Source: Lysobacter enzymogenes (GTDB lineage: Bacteria > Pseudomonadota > Gammaproteobacteria > Xanthomonadales > Xanthomonadaceae). Taken from it: a stretch of 64,000 bases of DNA. The notes under the pieces were generated by a model. The model saw nothing but the letters and a program-made list of their open reading frames with translations, was not told the origin of the DNA and did no database searches. A program made the translations under genes and the position numbers. Positions 53,312 to 57,571 of this stretch are shown in pieces. The first letter of the stretch is position 1. The number at the start of each line of letters is the position of its first letter. The stretch lies in contig NZ_FNOG01000004.1 in the NCBI RefSeq assembly GCF_900106525.1, positions 227,464-291,463 of the forward strand. The letters are read 5' to 3'.

Positions 53312-53545
53312 CTAGTGCTTCTCATCCTTGGGCGGATGCGGATCGTTCCCATAGCTGTCGCTGTCCTGGATCTTCCCATCCTTCCCATGGATGACGAGTT
53401 CCACCTCATCCTTGCGAGCCAGATCGCGCCCCGCCGCCTCGGCATCGACTTTGCGCTCGTGCACGGAACTGGCCCGCTCGGCGCCTTCGCGCTTGACGGC
53501 CCAGCCTTCGGGGTGGGGGACGACGTGAACGTCTTTCTTCGACAT
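53312..53545 (-). CDS. DUF2188-like small protein
   Basis: A 77-residue protein. MSKKDVHVVPHPEGWAVKRE is followed by GAERASSVHERKVDAEAAGR, DLARKDEVELVIHGKDGKIQ and DSDSYGNDPHPPKDEKH. The pattern VVP-x-x-x-GWAVKxxGxxRxSxxxxTKxEAxxxGRxxAxxxxxELxIHxxDGxI..DSYGxDPxPPxD is the DUF2188 signature. It is small, soluble and widespread, with unknown function. A short gap follows before the repeat array at 53701. Confidence 0.9.
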   Translation of the reverse strand: MSKKDVHVVPHPEGWAVKREGAERASSVHERKVDAEAAGRDLARKDEVELVIHGKDGKIQDSDSYGNDPHPPKDEKH

Positions 53546-53700
53546 GGTCCTTTGTCCTGTTGAGCTTGCGCGCCAGTCGCGCGAGCCGACGCTAGCACCG
53601 GCGATGCGGTCTGCCTGGGCGTTTGTGCAATCCGTGTGCCTGGGCGTGCCGCGTCTTTACGGAAACGAGACGAGGCTCGGATCGAGGCCATGCCCGTTGG
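53546..53700. other. Intergenic stretch leading into the 21-bp array
   Basis: No gene recognised. The last 40 bases (about 53659-53700) can be read as two very eroded 21-bp units (GAGGCTCGGATCGAGG region), so the array may have been longer. Confidence 0.4.
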
Positions 53701-53952
53701 AGCGAAAAGCTCGTGCAGCCGAGCAAGTAGCTCGGCCCACGAGGCTTTTAGCCGCTGGCACCGAGCGGATTTCTCGGCCGATCAAGCGAAATGCCCGGCG
53801 GTTGAAGCTCTGAGCCTGGGCGACCGAGCCCGGAGCGGCATCGATGAGGCTCGTTGCTCGGACGGCCGAGCCCGCCGCTGCATCGGCCGAGCAAAACGCT
53901 CGGACGCCCGAGCTTCGCGCTCCATCGGCCGAGCGTTTTGCTCGGCCGATGG
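53701..53952. repeat. Array of twelve degenerate 21-bp repeats with variable 5-nt loops
   Basis: Exactly twelve contiguous 21-bp units start at 53701. The consensus is AGC-N5-GCTCGG-x-C-G-x-CCG. The five bases between AGC and GCT differ in every unit (GAAAA, AAGTA, TTTTA, GGATT, GAAAT, TCTGA, CCGGA, TCGTT, CCGCC, AAAAC, TTCGC, GTTTT). With the CCG of the previous unit, several units form CCGAGC-N5-GCTCGG hairpins (6-bp stem, 5-nt loop); units 2, 10 and 12 are perfect. Because 21 is a multiple of 3, all frames on both strands stay open and encode seven-residue repeats (RA-xxSxxxA type). Whether it is translated is unclear. Confidence 0.85.
53881..53951. repeat. 23-bp perfect inverted repeat within the array
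   Basis: Positions 53881-53903 and 53929-53951 are perfect reverse complements over 23 bp, with 25 bp between. The loops of units 10 (AAAAC) and 12 (GTTTT) are complementary, so either each unit folds alone or these units pair with one another into one long stem. This alternative pairing is read directly from the sequence. Confidence 0.85.
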
Positions 53953-54035
53953 CGCTTGGCGCAACAAACCGCGCCCCCTGCCCCGCACCGCCGCACCCGC
54001 CCGGCCGGTTCACCGGCGCCAGCCACCTGCGGGGC

Positions 54036-54061
54036 AAAAAAATGCCGCCCGAAGGCGGCAT
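54036..54061 (-). terminator. Rho-independent terminator of the 155-residue protein gene
   Basis: On the leftward strand ATGCCGCC-TTCG-GGCGGCAT is followed by U residues from the A-run at 54036-54042. The TTCG tetraloop adds stability. It lies 42 bp beyond the stop codon and about 85 bp right of the 21-bp array, so transcripts of that gene should end before reaching the array. Confidence 0.9.
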
Positions 54062-54102
54062 AGACATTCGATACCCCGGGCGGGCGCGCCCATCGCGGCG
54101 CC

Positions 54103-54570
54103 TCACGCCGGCGGCGCAGCGGGCTCCCGGCGGGTGCGCGCCCAACGCGCCGACATCTCCTTGCGCAGCCCGTCCAGGCCCTGGTTCTTGCCGGCCACCT
54201 TGAGCAGCCCGTAGGCCTCCAGCGAGAACGCCATGATGTCGGCGCCCAGCGCCAACTCCGTATCGTCGCCGCGCTCGGCCAAACGCTGCAGGCGGTCGAG
54301 CAGCGGGCTCAGGCGGTCGAGCGTGCGCAGGTCCAACAGCGCGCCGGCCAAATCCACGCTGGGCGGGACCACCTGCGGGTTCTGCTCCAACACCCGCACC
54401 GCCTGCCGGCAGAACGTCTCGGACTTGGGGCCCATCTTGGCCAGGCGGCGGCGATCGTCCGGCGACAGCGACACCAGGCCGGACAGCACTGTCTCCAACT
54501 GGGACAAGGCCGCGTGTGCAGTAGCGAGCTGCTCGTCGCTGACTTCGAGGGTAATCAGGTTCTGACTCAT
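54103..54570 (-). CDS. Hypothetical helical protein next to the 21-bp array
   Basis: A 155-residue protein from ATG 54570 (GGAG eight bases upstream). It is almost wholly helical: LITLEVSDEQLATAHAALSQ, LETVLSGLVSLSPDDRRRLA, KMGPKSETFCRQAVRVLEQN, VDLAGALLDLRTLDRLSPLL and DRLQRLAERGDDTELALGAD. The C-terminus is basic (LRKEMSARWARTRREPAAPP). No domain was recognised. Helical bundles of this type occur in phase-separating or scaffold proteins, but this is speculation. It may be functionally linked to the nearby array, or merely adjacent. Confidence 0.65.
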   Translation of the reverse strand: MSQNLITLEVSDEQLATAHAALSQLETVLSGLVSLSPDDRRRLAKMGPKSETFCRQAVRVLEQNPQVVPPSVDLAGALLDLRTLDRLSPLLDRLQRLAERGDDTELALGADIMAFSLEAYGLLKVAGKNQGLDGLRKEMSARWARTRREPAAPPA

Positions 54571-54779
54571 CACGACACTCCATTTCGATTGGGACGCACG
54601 TCGGATCGACGGCGAACAGGATCGTCGCGGAGGCCGCGCGCGATGGGGAGTCGGTGAGCGCCGCATTGCGGGGTCGGAGATTTCTTGGGTGAAAAAGTGT
54701 GCACAACGCAACCGCTACTCAATCCGCTTGCGCAATAGACATACTAGCAATTTCGATTTAATTCCAACTACAAACCTCC

Positions 54780-55010
54780 TTAGGGCATCGACCGAATAGC
54801 AACGACAACCACATCCAAATCATCTGCGAATCGATCGAAGCACTGCGCCAACGCCTCGGCGGATAAATATACAACATCAGCGCCTGCCTCTCCCTGAGGC
54901 TCAGTCAGCTGAGCGAGGAGCCGCAACTGATCACGGACACGAACTAGCTCTTTGAGTCGCCCGTCTATGAGGGCCCCAAAACATACAGAATCATGGCATT
55001 TCACGCGCAT
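54780..55010 (-). CDS. Small hypothetical protein in the AT-rich island
   Basis: A 76-residue protein, MRVKCHDSVCFGALIDGRLK then ELVRVRDQLRLLAQLTEPQG. It continues EAGADVVYLSAEALAQCFDR and FADDLDVVVVAIRSMP. AGGAGG lies five bases before the ATG at 55010. Codon use is mixed and much less GC-biased than in the flanks, fitting the island. It follows the DUF4435 gene by 130 bp on the same strand. It could be an accessory gene of the PARIS-like pair or an unrelated passenger. No family recognised. Confidence 0.55.
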   Translation of the reverse strand: MRVKCHDSVCFGALIDGRLKELVRVRDQLRLLAQLTEPQGEAGADVVYLSAEALAQCFDRFADDLDVVVVAIRSMP

Positions 55011-55140
55011 TAGGAACCCTCCTGGACGAGCCCAGAGGATATCAGCGCATCAGATAAATTCAAAAATAGAATAAAACCTTATTCGAACTGAGATACCACG
55101 AAAATAAAAATAAGCAGAAAATCAGCGGCCGTAGGCAACA

Positions 55141-56070
55141 CTAACTACAGTTCGCTCTGCACTCCCGGTCTGAAGCCAATACAAATTCCGCCAATCCAGC
55201 GGGAAGAGGGGCTCTGGCCGCGAGACTACGATAATCCAAGCTAGCAGGCGTGAATGCCATATCAGTCACCTGCTCATGATGCAGCGTGGGCCGAGCAGAA
55301 CGGACATCATTATAAACAAGATGAACCCAAACCTTAAAAAAATGATACAAAAACTTCCCCCTAATCCACTCACGAGAATTGATCGAACTGAAAAAATCCC
55401 GCGCCTCCTCAATTGCCTCAGCCGGAACTGGATTTTCAGTTCTCACCAACCTCTCCAGACGCTCAGCATCTCGCACAACAGCAGTATCCAGCGAAATATT
55501 AATAGACGAAACTGCCGCATCCCATATATTAACCCCCCCAACCGCCCGCCCCACAGCCCCATGCAATACAAAGCTCGCAGGAAGCACACAAGCCACAAAA
55601 TCATTCATAGCAGCCAGATACTTATCTATCACCCCAGCTCTAGCACTTGGATCAGCGGAAAAATAAATATCCGCCTTCAACAGCGAATCAAGCACATCAG
55701 GATGCACTAAAAAATTTTCAAAAGAATAAGCAGGGGAAATATATATATCGCTATCAGAATGCGCCCCCCGCAAACCATCGTAATCATGATCAACAATAAA
55801 GTATGTACAAGTGCGCAATCCCGTTCGGTCTCGGAGGAGCATCTCCCTAAACTCTAGAGCACTACCCTTACCCCTAGCCACTAATGGCTCCCATTTCAGA
55901 TCAGGGGAAACTCGCCGCAACCAAATATCATAAACAACAAGATCATCCTTCCCTTCAACAACAAACACAAGCATGCATCTATCGAGCCCCCGCAATCGAG
56001 CAAGGGCCGTTTTTAGCACTGCGGGCTTATCCCTCTGAGAACGCAAATATTCACTAGTTATTCGAGTCAT
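55141..56070 (-). CDS. DUF4435 TOPRIM-like protein, AriB-like component of a PARIS-type system
   Basis: A 309-residue protein. The N-terminal half has a TOPRIM-like acidic set: Glu39 (CMLVFVVEGKDDLVVYDIWL), Asp94 and Asp96 (TYFIVDHDYDGLRG), and a conserved YSFENF (Glu118). This is the DUF4435 pattern. The C-terminal half is helical (DFFSSINSREWIRGKFLYHF). In PARIS, the DUF4435 protein AriB is the toxic nuclease released when the ATPase AriA senses a phage anti-restriction protein. Here it starts at the A of the ATPase gene's stop codon (TGATG overlap), so the two are translationally coupled. DNA is AT-rich. Identity with PARIS is inferred from architecture. Confidence 0.8.
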   Translation of the reverse strand: MTRITSEYLRSQRDKPAVLKTALARLRGLDRCMLVFVVEGKDDLVVYDIWLRRVSPDLKWEPLVARGKGSALEFREMLLRDRTGLRTCTYFIVDHDYDGLRGAHSDSDIYISPAYSFENFLVHPDVLDSLLKADIYFSADPSARAGVIDKYLAAMNDFVACVLPASFVLHGAVGRAVGGVNIWDAAVSSINISLDTAVVRDAERLERLVRTENPVPAEAIEEARDFFSSINSREWIRGKFLYHFFKVWVHLVYNDVRSARPTLHHEQVTDMAFTPASLDYRSLAARAPLPAGLAEFVLASDRECRANCS

Positions 56071-57530
56071 CAGAATAACCCCTGCGGAACCTTCGTTACC
56101 TCCAACGCCCCCGCATACGGATCCAGTTCATTATCAAAAACGAAAGGAGAATGCGTAATCGCTAACAATTGACATACAGAACCGGAACGCATCATGTCCG
56201 GGAGAATTCGCCTCTGCCAATCAATTGACAACGACAGCTCGGGCTCGTCAACCAAAACCAGCTTCTGTCTCTCATACAAATACAACTTGGCCAGTATCGA
56301 AACAATCTGCTTCTCACCAGACGAAAGCTGACTGAGGGGAATTGATTTTCGTGTCCAGGAGTTAATGACAGCCACTCGCATTAAATTTTGATCATAGGTA
56401 AATACTTTCTCCTCATTCGAATCGCTTAAATAACTATTGCATGCATCAACAAAGCGCTGAAGCATTGCCTCAGTCTCCTTTGTCTTTTCTATCACACCTC
56501 CGAGTCGGCTTAGAAAATATCTAAGCAACCGCTGATCCTCCGCAGAAATATCCCCAGAAACGTAAAGAGCAGCTATTGCCGATATTCTTTTCTCATTCTG
56601 AACATCAGAAACAGAAGAAACTCTATGACTCTCCACGCCCAACTTAGAATCTCGCGAAATTCGCGACAAAAAACGCCTCAGAGATTCAAGATCGGGCAAT
56701 TCCGCTATGGATGCCGACTCGAACTTAATCTTTCCGGAAAGCGCGTCATCAATGATAGTAGCGCTCGCATTTCTGTACTCCAAATTGGAAATTCTTTCCA
56801 CATCATCTGAGAGCTGAGCCAGACGAAGCTCTACATCTTCTAATCCAAAATTAATCCCTCCCGCATCTAGAGGCACGCTCTTTCTAGATGCAGCTACATG
56901 CCTTGAGCTAGTCGTGGCATACCCCTTTCGCATCCTTGTTCGAGGGCTTAAGAGCGGATTCTCAATTCTCCTATAAGTTGGCAGATACAATATGTCAGCA
57001 TCCCCCAAGGCCGCCGCCACGGAGTCAGAAATCGCACTAAGCTCAACAGTATTATTAAAAGACAACCCTGCCACAATACTGTCAAGGGCCGCATATATAT
57101 CGCCATAATCCATGGGCGTTGCAGAGTACAATTGCCTAAAAATATTACTACTGCGAACCGCTTGCGACTCCCTGCCTAACATATAATCATTATGTATGAA
57201 ATCGTAAAGATCCTCTTCTGAGATCCCAGACTCTCCCGCCAACCTAGTCAATCTCTCGTGTGCATCACCTTTAACGCCCCCAATTGACTCTTTTCGAAGC
57301 AAAACAGGTTCAGTCAAAGTGCAGAACTCGCACTCAATTGATAAAAAATCCAACGATTGCAGCCTATAAAACCGTCGCCGCAAGAATGCATGAAGAGCAT
57401 TCAGTACGGTTGTCTTTCCTGATCCATTACCAGCAATCAATATAAGCAAATTGTCATGGAAATTTATTTCGACATCCTTATACCCATACAAGCCATTTAT
57501 CTTGAACCTACGAATTATTGGCCCAGTCAT
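56070..57530 (-). CDS. AAA/ABC-type ATPase, AriA-like component of a PARIS-type system
   Basis: A 486-residue ATPase of the AAA_15/AAA_21 (OLD-like, SMC-ABC) type. Walker A is GNGSGKT (about 34-40), after FKINGLYGYKDVEINFHDNL. The ABC signature LSSGEKQ lies at about 402-408, Walker B is LVLVDEPE (about 424-431), and the H-loop is AITHSPFVF. The middle contains helical and coiled segments. The start is ATG 57530 with GAGG seven bases upstream; a TTG six bases further is possible. In PARIS, AriA forms a cage that holds AriB and senses viral triggers. The coupled DUF4435 gene downstream supports that reading. It may be transcribed together with the glycosyltransferase, which ends 42 bp upstream. 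Confidence 0.82.
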   Translation of the reverse strand: MTGPIIRRFKINGLYGYKDVEINFHDNLLILIAGNGSGKTTVLNALHAFLRRRFYRLQSLDFLSIECEFCTLTEPVLLRKESIGGVKGDAHERLTRLAGESGISEEDLYDFIHNDYMLGRESQAVRSSNIFRQLYSATPMDYGDIYAALDSIVAGLSFNNTVELSAISDSVAAALGDADILYLPTYRRIENPLLSPRTRMRKGYATTSSRHVAASRKSVPLDAGGINFGLEDVELRLAQLSDDVERISNLEYRNASATIIDDALSGKIKFESASIAELPDLESLRRFLSRISRDSKLGVESHRVSSVSDVQNEKRISAIAALYVSGDISAEDQRLLRYFLSRLGGVIEKTKETEAMLQRFVDACNSYLSDSNEEKVFTYDQNLMRVAVINSWTRKSIPLSQLSSGEKQIVSILAKLYLYERQKLVLVDEPELSLSIDWQRRILPDMMRSGSVCQLLAITHSPFVFDNELDPYAGALEVTKVPQGLF

Positions 57531-57571
57531 AGTCAATCCTCAACTTATAGCACGGCACATTAATAATCCCC

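Follow-up and report, generated by a model that had tools for sequence, protein, structure and literature searches.

The array at positions 53701-53952 of the window (the whole stretch of 64,000 nucleotides that was analysed) is one member of a family of non-coding arrays built from 21-bp dyad-symmetric units. It combines a regular geometry with constraint on the inner arms of the units, is free of coding and RNA-pairing signals, and is linked in the genome to the gene of a 155-aa protein. We propose that the array is a non-coding element that acts as a platform for putative cooperative DNA-protein binding, linked to the 155-aa gene, and we give this reading a probability of about 0.46. An earlier description made from the letters alone (the sequence-only reading) had offered a structured RNA, a DNA-binding array or a coding minisatellite, and the second of these appears to fit best of the three. 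The features of the region are:

53312..53545, minus strand: DUF2188 gene (Pfam PF09954, 83.9 bits), downstream of the array and on the same strand as the 155-aa gene
53701..53952: array of 12 × 21-bp dyad units, consensus AGC-N5-GCTCGg-nCGaCCG (word class A)
54042..54061, minus strand: intrinsic-terminator-like hairpin and T-run, separating the array from the 155-aa gene
54106..54570, minus strand: 155-aa protein, predicted all-helical, of an unnamed family (MSQNLITLEV...), the conserved neighbour of the array
54783..55049, minus strand: open frame with an XAC0095-family domain (NF047335, 54.7 bits; cut-off 34 bits), upstream of the 155-aa gene

Along the minus strand the order is XAC0095-domain frame, 155-aa gene, terminator-like hairpin, array and DUF2188 gene. 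Farther upstream, two adjacent frames at 55144-57536 (minus strand) match AriB (55 bits) and AriA (111 bits) in PADLOC, and would make up a PARIS-like defence pair beside the module. According to the excerpt of the source available, XAC0095 of Xanthomonas citri is described as an interaction partner of HrpG and as the neighbour of XAC0096, which interacts with VirD4 (PMC2883993).

The window array parses into 12 contiguous units, all of exactly 21 bp, with none of 20 or 22 bp. Its identity at lag 21 is 0.511, which 0 of 2000 dinucleotide shuffles reach (mean 0.276, sd 0.030, maximum 0.385); the shuffle maximum over lags 8-60 is 0.40 (300 dinucleotide shuffles of the array), and in a sliding window the lag-21 signal extends over 53670-54009. 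This bears out the exact 21-bp periodicity noted earlier, and the 12 five-nt centres are indeed all distinct, with an A+T content of 62% against 24% in the remainder of the unit. TRF detected just the 3' part of the array, in two rows with scores of 53 and 112. In its own genome (G000) the array is single-copy, the second match being the same array read in reverse, and other 21-bp arrays with other words are present.

For the constraint on the unit, the detailed measurements come from a single species pair. The arrays of G000 and G005 align without a gap over 252 bp and differ at 78 positions (31%), while their alignable flanks differ at 46 of 208. The differences avoid AGC (positions 1-3) and GC (positions 9-10), which together differ at 3 of 60 positions, against 29 of 60 for the five centre positions. 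The dyad is therefore under constraint, as the sequence-only reading had proposed; of the conserved stem parts that it named, AGC-N5-GC, the best-conserved part of the window-array unit, holds, and the GCTCGG arm does not, being present in 4 of the 12 units (units 2, 8, 10 and 12). Across 11 close array pairs, two of which use the same array (L052), substitutions fall on 193 of 1417 high-information columns, 348 of 1782 low-information columns and 1280 of 7870 flanking positions, the flanks being partly coding. The two closest pairs give no contrast between high- and low-information columns, and their low-information columns diverge at about the rate of the flanks, which does not support the suggested source of loop diversity. 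To judge from these counts, the centres are variable A+T-rich spacers, with no sign of hypermutation or of a diversification engine.

In 8 of the 11 close pairs (two of the eight contain L052) the net lengths of the two arrays are no more than 5 bp apart. Longer net changes are +69 bp with two 21-bp insertions (L080/L095), −23 bp with one 21-bp deletion (L124/L138) and +33 bp in scattered pieces (L099/L119). The claim that the array reflects something other than simple slippage is thus upheld in part, by the constant length in 8 of 11 pairs, and weakened by the 21-bp gains and losses in 2 of 11; in these alignments whole-unit change does take place, at a slow pace. The same indels would be expected of a neutral or selfish satellite, made of tandem copies by slippage and persisting by chance in an intergenic gap; the constant length and the conserved inner arms count against such an origin, to which we return with the words of the arrays.

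When the DNA of the window array was compared with 20 genomes of the genus, 4 gave matches, including the source genome: 272 bp at 71% in G005, and two short stretches, 52 bp in G014 and 43 bp in G019. The 155-aa gene is more widespread (11 of the 20 genomes by protein search), and in all nine loci nearest to the window gene (L036-L044) it is followed by a 21-bp array, with differing words. GCTCGG-type words occur in G000, G005, G017 and G019, TTCGCGAA-type words in G010, G004 and G013, and a GACTCGCGAGAGC word in G015, and the array of G009 is degenerate. The arrays of G013 and G009 (L042 and L043) end in a common AATGTCTTTTTTACTCAT stretch, in reverse ATG-AGT-AAA-AAA-GAC-ATT, which may be read as a T-run or as a start-like codon run.

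We extended the search to contigs carrying the 155-aa family and analysed the best 80 of 170 loci, from Gamma- and Betaproteobacteria, which are not independent because several come from one strain. Among these best 80 loci, 56 have a 21-bp array within about 400 bp of the gene, 44 of them downstream and 12 upstream; 4 additional arrays lie farther away in these loci, and in 21 loci no array was found at the threshold used. Arrays have 6 to 23 units, mostly 9-18. A lag-21 excess above 0.15 was found in 66 of the 80 loci, and an excess at any of the control lags 15, 18, 24 and 27 in 4 (L064, 0.411; L119, 0.216; L121, 0.153; L111, 0.151). In this set, arrays occur, among others, in the gammaproteobacterial genera Lysobacter, Pseudoxanthomonas, Luteimonas, Rhodanobacter, Dokdonella, Thermomonas, Stenotrophomonas, Arenimonas and Hydrocarboniphaga and the betaproteobacterial genera Zoogloea, Accumulibacter and Aquabacterium, and both Tahibacter loci are without one. 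An open frame on the opposite strand, picked by length, follows 18 of the 44 downstream arrays, which argues against a plain promoter operator.

The geometry is common to arrays of different sequence. Parsed unit lengths (1076 units from 78 arrays) were 21 bp in 942, 22 bp in 83 and 20 bp in 51. Unit-to-unit distances in the chain parse (11 to 51) were 21 in 726 cases, 22 in 26, 20 in 11, 23 in 8, and 18 or 24 in none; distances that skip a unit numbered 32 at 41-43 and 35 at 41-44, and off-register distances were 5-8 bp off in 5 cases and 9-12 bp off in 3. This count leaves out arrays averaging fewer than 7 exact units, as well as L037, L039 and L059; fewer than 6 was the cut in the dyad, covariation and word-class counts, and L039 was dropped from one further count. 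The dyad sites are thus spaced at integral helical turns with a tolerance of about ±1 bp, and since shifts of ±1 occur and shifts of ±3 do not, helical phase fits and codons do not. Shifts of a full turn (9-12 bp) are no commoner than shifts of half a turn, a scarcity that pure helical phase by itself does not require. In these 78 parsed arrays, a set that includes two loci twice (L037 = L059, L039 = L060), the best dyad axis has a pairing of 0.32-0.65, with about 0.5 as the typical value, and the median axis one of about 0.26.

A unit of seven codons would be accounted for by a coding minisatellite of seven-residue repeats, and two of the six frames run through the 252 bp without a stop. The forward offset-1 frame is open in both the G000 and the aligned G005 array, as a stop-poor repeat can be without being a gene. 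The earlier statement that all frames stay open and encode repeats on both strands does not stand, the six frames holding 4, 0, 1, 1, 1 and 0 stops. Departures of ±1 from the spacing number 37 and departures of ±3 none, the G000/G005 differences are spread over the codon positions as 24, 30 and 24, with no codon bias, and neither of the two window frames tested has a Pfam match. With stops in four of six frames and a reading frame that is not kept through the array and its homologues, coding is a very improbable explanation. Long open frames do cover the array on both strands, at 53636-54214 (plus) and 53657-54706 (minus); they are probably spurious and could be mis-annotated as repeat proteins.

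The same helical phase would suit a topological or bending element, in which A+T-rich and G+C-rich axes alternating every 10.5 bp make a curved or wrappable DNA with no word-specific reader, gyrase or nucleoid proteins being candidate wrapping factors. The A+T-richer dyad centre has a mean A+T of 0.56, the other 0.28 and the array 0.34 (78 arrays), a contrast inflated by the choice of the richer centre, and a position past terminator-like sites and ahead of a frame on the opposite strand is common among the arrays. However, both centres are G+C-rich in some arrays (L054, L098 and L127), and recurring words require more than bending, so we regard this explanation as rather improbable.

We give a similarly low rating to a structured RNA, in which the array would be transcribed and each unit would form a short hairpin with a 5-nt loop, as a sponge or in the manner of a guide RNA. 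Each strand folds better than its 100 dinucleotide shuffles (z = −5.7 and −6.3), yet good folding is trivial for palindromic tandem repeats. The placing of an array beside a protein gene resembles TIGR-Tas loci, as far as these are described in the excerpt of PMC12045711, and covariation over all columns of the 78 arrays (two loci twice) is weakly positive (combined z 2.9, control −1.3). At the stem columns, on the other hand, Watson-Crick pairs are no more frequent than when right arms are redealt among units: 3822 observed and 3834 permuted of 5842 in 48 downstream arrays, and 796 and 803 of 1267 in 11 upstream arrays, the test covering the window and the loci of the 155-aa family scan and leaving out L037-L056, L152 and L160. 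G-U pairs (480) do not significantly exceed A-C pairs (410; per-array mean difference 1.46, s.e. 1.19), no Rfam family reaches its gathering score over the array, and a spacing of 21 ± 1 has no obvious RNA reason. In addition, a terminator-like site on the gene strand precedes the array in 24 of the 44 downstream loci (of the best 80 of 170), against 4 of 44 on the opposite strand. In the 2 kb around the window array there are 4 such sites, two of them inside the array, where shuffles predict 2.1. The structured-RNA option of the sequence-only reading therefore finds no backing in within-unit stem covariation, G-U asymmetry or Rfam. As the arms vary independently, half-sites of a DNA-binding protein fit better than base-paired stems.

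The words of the arrays fall into about ten classes, each palindromic in its own letters and recurring across genera; the clustering cut is arbitrary, ten clusters of at least two arrays hold 56 of 65 arrays, and some members are loose (e.g. L096 and L116 in class A). Most related arrays use words other than the consensus given in the sequence-only reading, which accordingly is not what they share; to judge from the arrays compared, what they have in common is the period, the dyad and the gene neighbour. Array pairs with a similarity above 0.6 make up 3.8%, 6.9% and 10.0% of those at protein identities below 0.50 (two bands pooled), 0.50-0.55 and 0.55-0.60, with 0%, 0.4% and 0% in a column-shuffled null for the same bands. 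On a tree of 56 proteins the word classes need 18 changes, between the least possible number of 9 and a shuffled mean of 37, and classes A and B each change at least 5 times.

One such change can be seen in the syntenic loci of G000 (class A) and G010 (class C), where identity is 80% in the gene, 69% from its stop to the array, 73% in the 130 bp before the DUF2188 gene and 86% in the DUF2188 gene. The two arrays align with a score of −37, within the range of five shuffles (−31.5 to −52). Since the arrays align no better than shuffled sequence between alignable flanks, whole arrays have been replaced. This, together with the likeness of units within an array and the separate word of each locus, is what a neutral satellite would also produce. 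Nevertheless, we consider a satellite unlikely, given that a spacing of about 21 is found in arrays of different words, that dyad symmetry is general, that word classes recur between genera and that in 56 of the best 80 of 170 loci the array lies beside the same gene family.

In the own genome, 12 period-21 calls were made in 2.45 Mb (39%) of 6.26 Mb, and 4 of them have a dyad score of at least 0.40: the window array, L155, which adjoins the genome's second 155-aa gene, L152 and L160. L271 was added as an array by eye (dyad score 0.33). A further 60 calls came from the remaining periods between 14 and 30, and 6 of these reach a dyad score of 0.40 (periods 16, 18, 22 and 30, at most 2 each), so that in the genome scan the combination of dyad and period is not exclusive to 21. 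The calls inspected as DNA were the window array, L155 (via L051, the same place), L152 (three pieces), L160, L271 and L176, the last of which lies inside an open frame; the period-21 calls L140, L147, L163 and L195 and all calls at other periods were counted without inspection of the DNA. Exact CTTGCGCGCAAG (class-B) sites number 5 in the 6.26-Mb genome, all inside two arrays; a backwards-pattern control also counts 5, and it is therefore their place and not their number that is informative. Exact class-A words number 6, of which 3 are in the window array (control 3), and class-B words occur in three separate arrays of the own genome.

Three of the five arrays counted in the 2.45 Mb sit away from a 155-aa gene. 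Arrays of the CTTGCGCGCAAG type lie near XAC0095-family genes in the own genome (L152, 435-1059; L155, 12135-12747; L271, 15906-16200), and all 4 XAC0095-family matches of this genome are within about 1.5 kb of an array. The array of L160 (9606-9987; C15, about 29.6-30.0 kb), a strong 21-bp dyad array with AAATTT-like centres and unannotated flanking frames, adjoins neither a 155-aa nor an XAC0095-family gene. Elsewhere in the genus, six XAC0095 loci have an array with no listed 155-aa match nearby (L216, L217, L219, L221, L223 and L225), and by eye the units in these six and in L271 are degenerate versions of the CTTGCGCGCAAG type. Of 30 XAC0095 loci scanned, 17 have no array in a stretch of roughly 3 kb; L218 was left out of the analysis of XAC0095-domain frames (stop in the domain).

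The 155-aa protein has no match in Pfam, NCBIfam or PADLOC. Its AlphaFold2 model is all-helical (pLDDT 90, pTM 0.70), and a Foldseek search with it against solved structures gave no match at E ≤ 0.001 and none that was informative. The segment KSExFCRQ is invariant, x excepted, in 59 sequences of the family. In other collections we found one weak plasmid match, and none in the phage collection. The protein is not an obvious reader of the words, because close relatives (82% identical, in G000 and G010) adjoin arrays of unlike words. The G005 gene (L044) carries a frame disruption, which could be a sequencing error or decay, beside a conserved array.

The geometry behind the binding-platform reading is that of palindromic sites repeated every 21 bp, which brings all the dyad axes onto the same face of the helix; a second dyad lies between units, so that half-sites of alternating orientation follow one another at intervals of about 10.5 bp. 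Most likely, a symmetric protein, dimeric or oligomeric, would bind these half-sites cooperatively on that face and touch the arms on either side of the A+T-rich N5 centre (in the window array, AGC-N5-GC). The word differs between arrays of one genome, which would call either for one tolerant binder or for several binders. Candidate purposes are local chromosome organisation, insulation past the terminator of the gene, or a target for the module's own protein.

A bolder proposal, which we consider doubtful, is that the 155-aa gene, with its conserved helical protein, and the helically phased array form an undescribed two-part module, in which the palindromic word of the array serves as an exchangeable address taken from a limited set. 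If so, one genome would hold the same or different addresses, whole addresses would be exchanged at a fixed locus, and an address might, for example, place its locus under one of several protein assemblies with a role in nucleoid binding, partition or defence. Bacterial intergenic tandem repeats are usually filed as slippage products; the period, symmetry and gene neighbour, common here despite differing sequence, point to an unrecognised chromosomal binding element, and a search of open-licence papers yielded no description of such arrays. The arrays also offer a handle on a protein family with no Pfam or NCBIfam match, and as the words are short and known, the binder could be fished directly.

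VNTR minisatellites are tandem units in intergenic gaps that vary in number. The present arrays are likewise intergenic and gain or lose whole units in 2 of 11 species-level pairs, but differ in being constant in length within 5 bp in 8 of 11 pairs and dyad-symmetric, with a spacing of 21 common to arrays of different words and a link to one gene family.

REPs are high-copy short extragenic palindromes, according to the excerpt of PMC3733652. The present units are short extragenic palindromes as well; unlike the REP/BIME elements described there, they are contiguous and found at about five places in 2.45 Mb, the exact class-B word lies solely inside arrays, and the whole-genome word searches and the period scan of 39% of the genome did not find many dispersed copies. 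CRISPR arrays, in the same excerpt, have repeats of 24-48 bp with regularly sized unique spacers between them (PMC3733652), in contrast to a unit of 21 bp with a 5-nt variable centre.

TIGR-Tas loci, as far as the excerpt of PMC12045711 describes them, carry an array upstream or downstream of a single-protein gene, with repeats conserved within a locus and differing between loci; some form palindromic stem-loop arrays with locus-specific repeats, and the units yield 36-nt RNAs with two spacers of about 9 nt and are accompanied by a Nop-domain protein (PMC12045711). Measured against that excerpt, the present module is similar in having one protein gene and a long array, locus-specific repeats and palindromic parts. 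It differs in its unit of 21 bp with a single variable 5-bp centre, which does not match the 36-nt, two-spacer plan, and the 155-aa protein has no Pfam match and no Foldseek match at E ≤ 0.001 to set beside the Nop domain, a remote fold being possible.

ARG boxes, plasmid iterons and centromere arrays of the parC/parS type are tandem operators or iterons at helical spacing. The present arrays differ from these in being chromosomal, in having 6 to 23 units and in lying often after the terminator-like site of a gene; their word varies between arrays and is replaceable en bloc, and their cognate protein is putative. They resemble them in having dyad or direct sites at approximately integral helical turns, with a variable centre, on one face of the helix.
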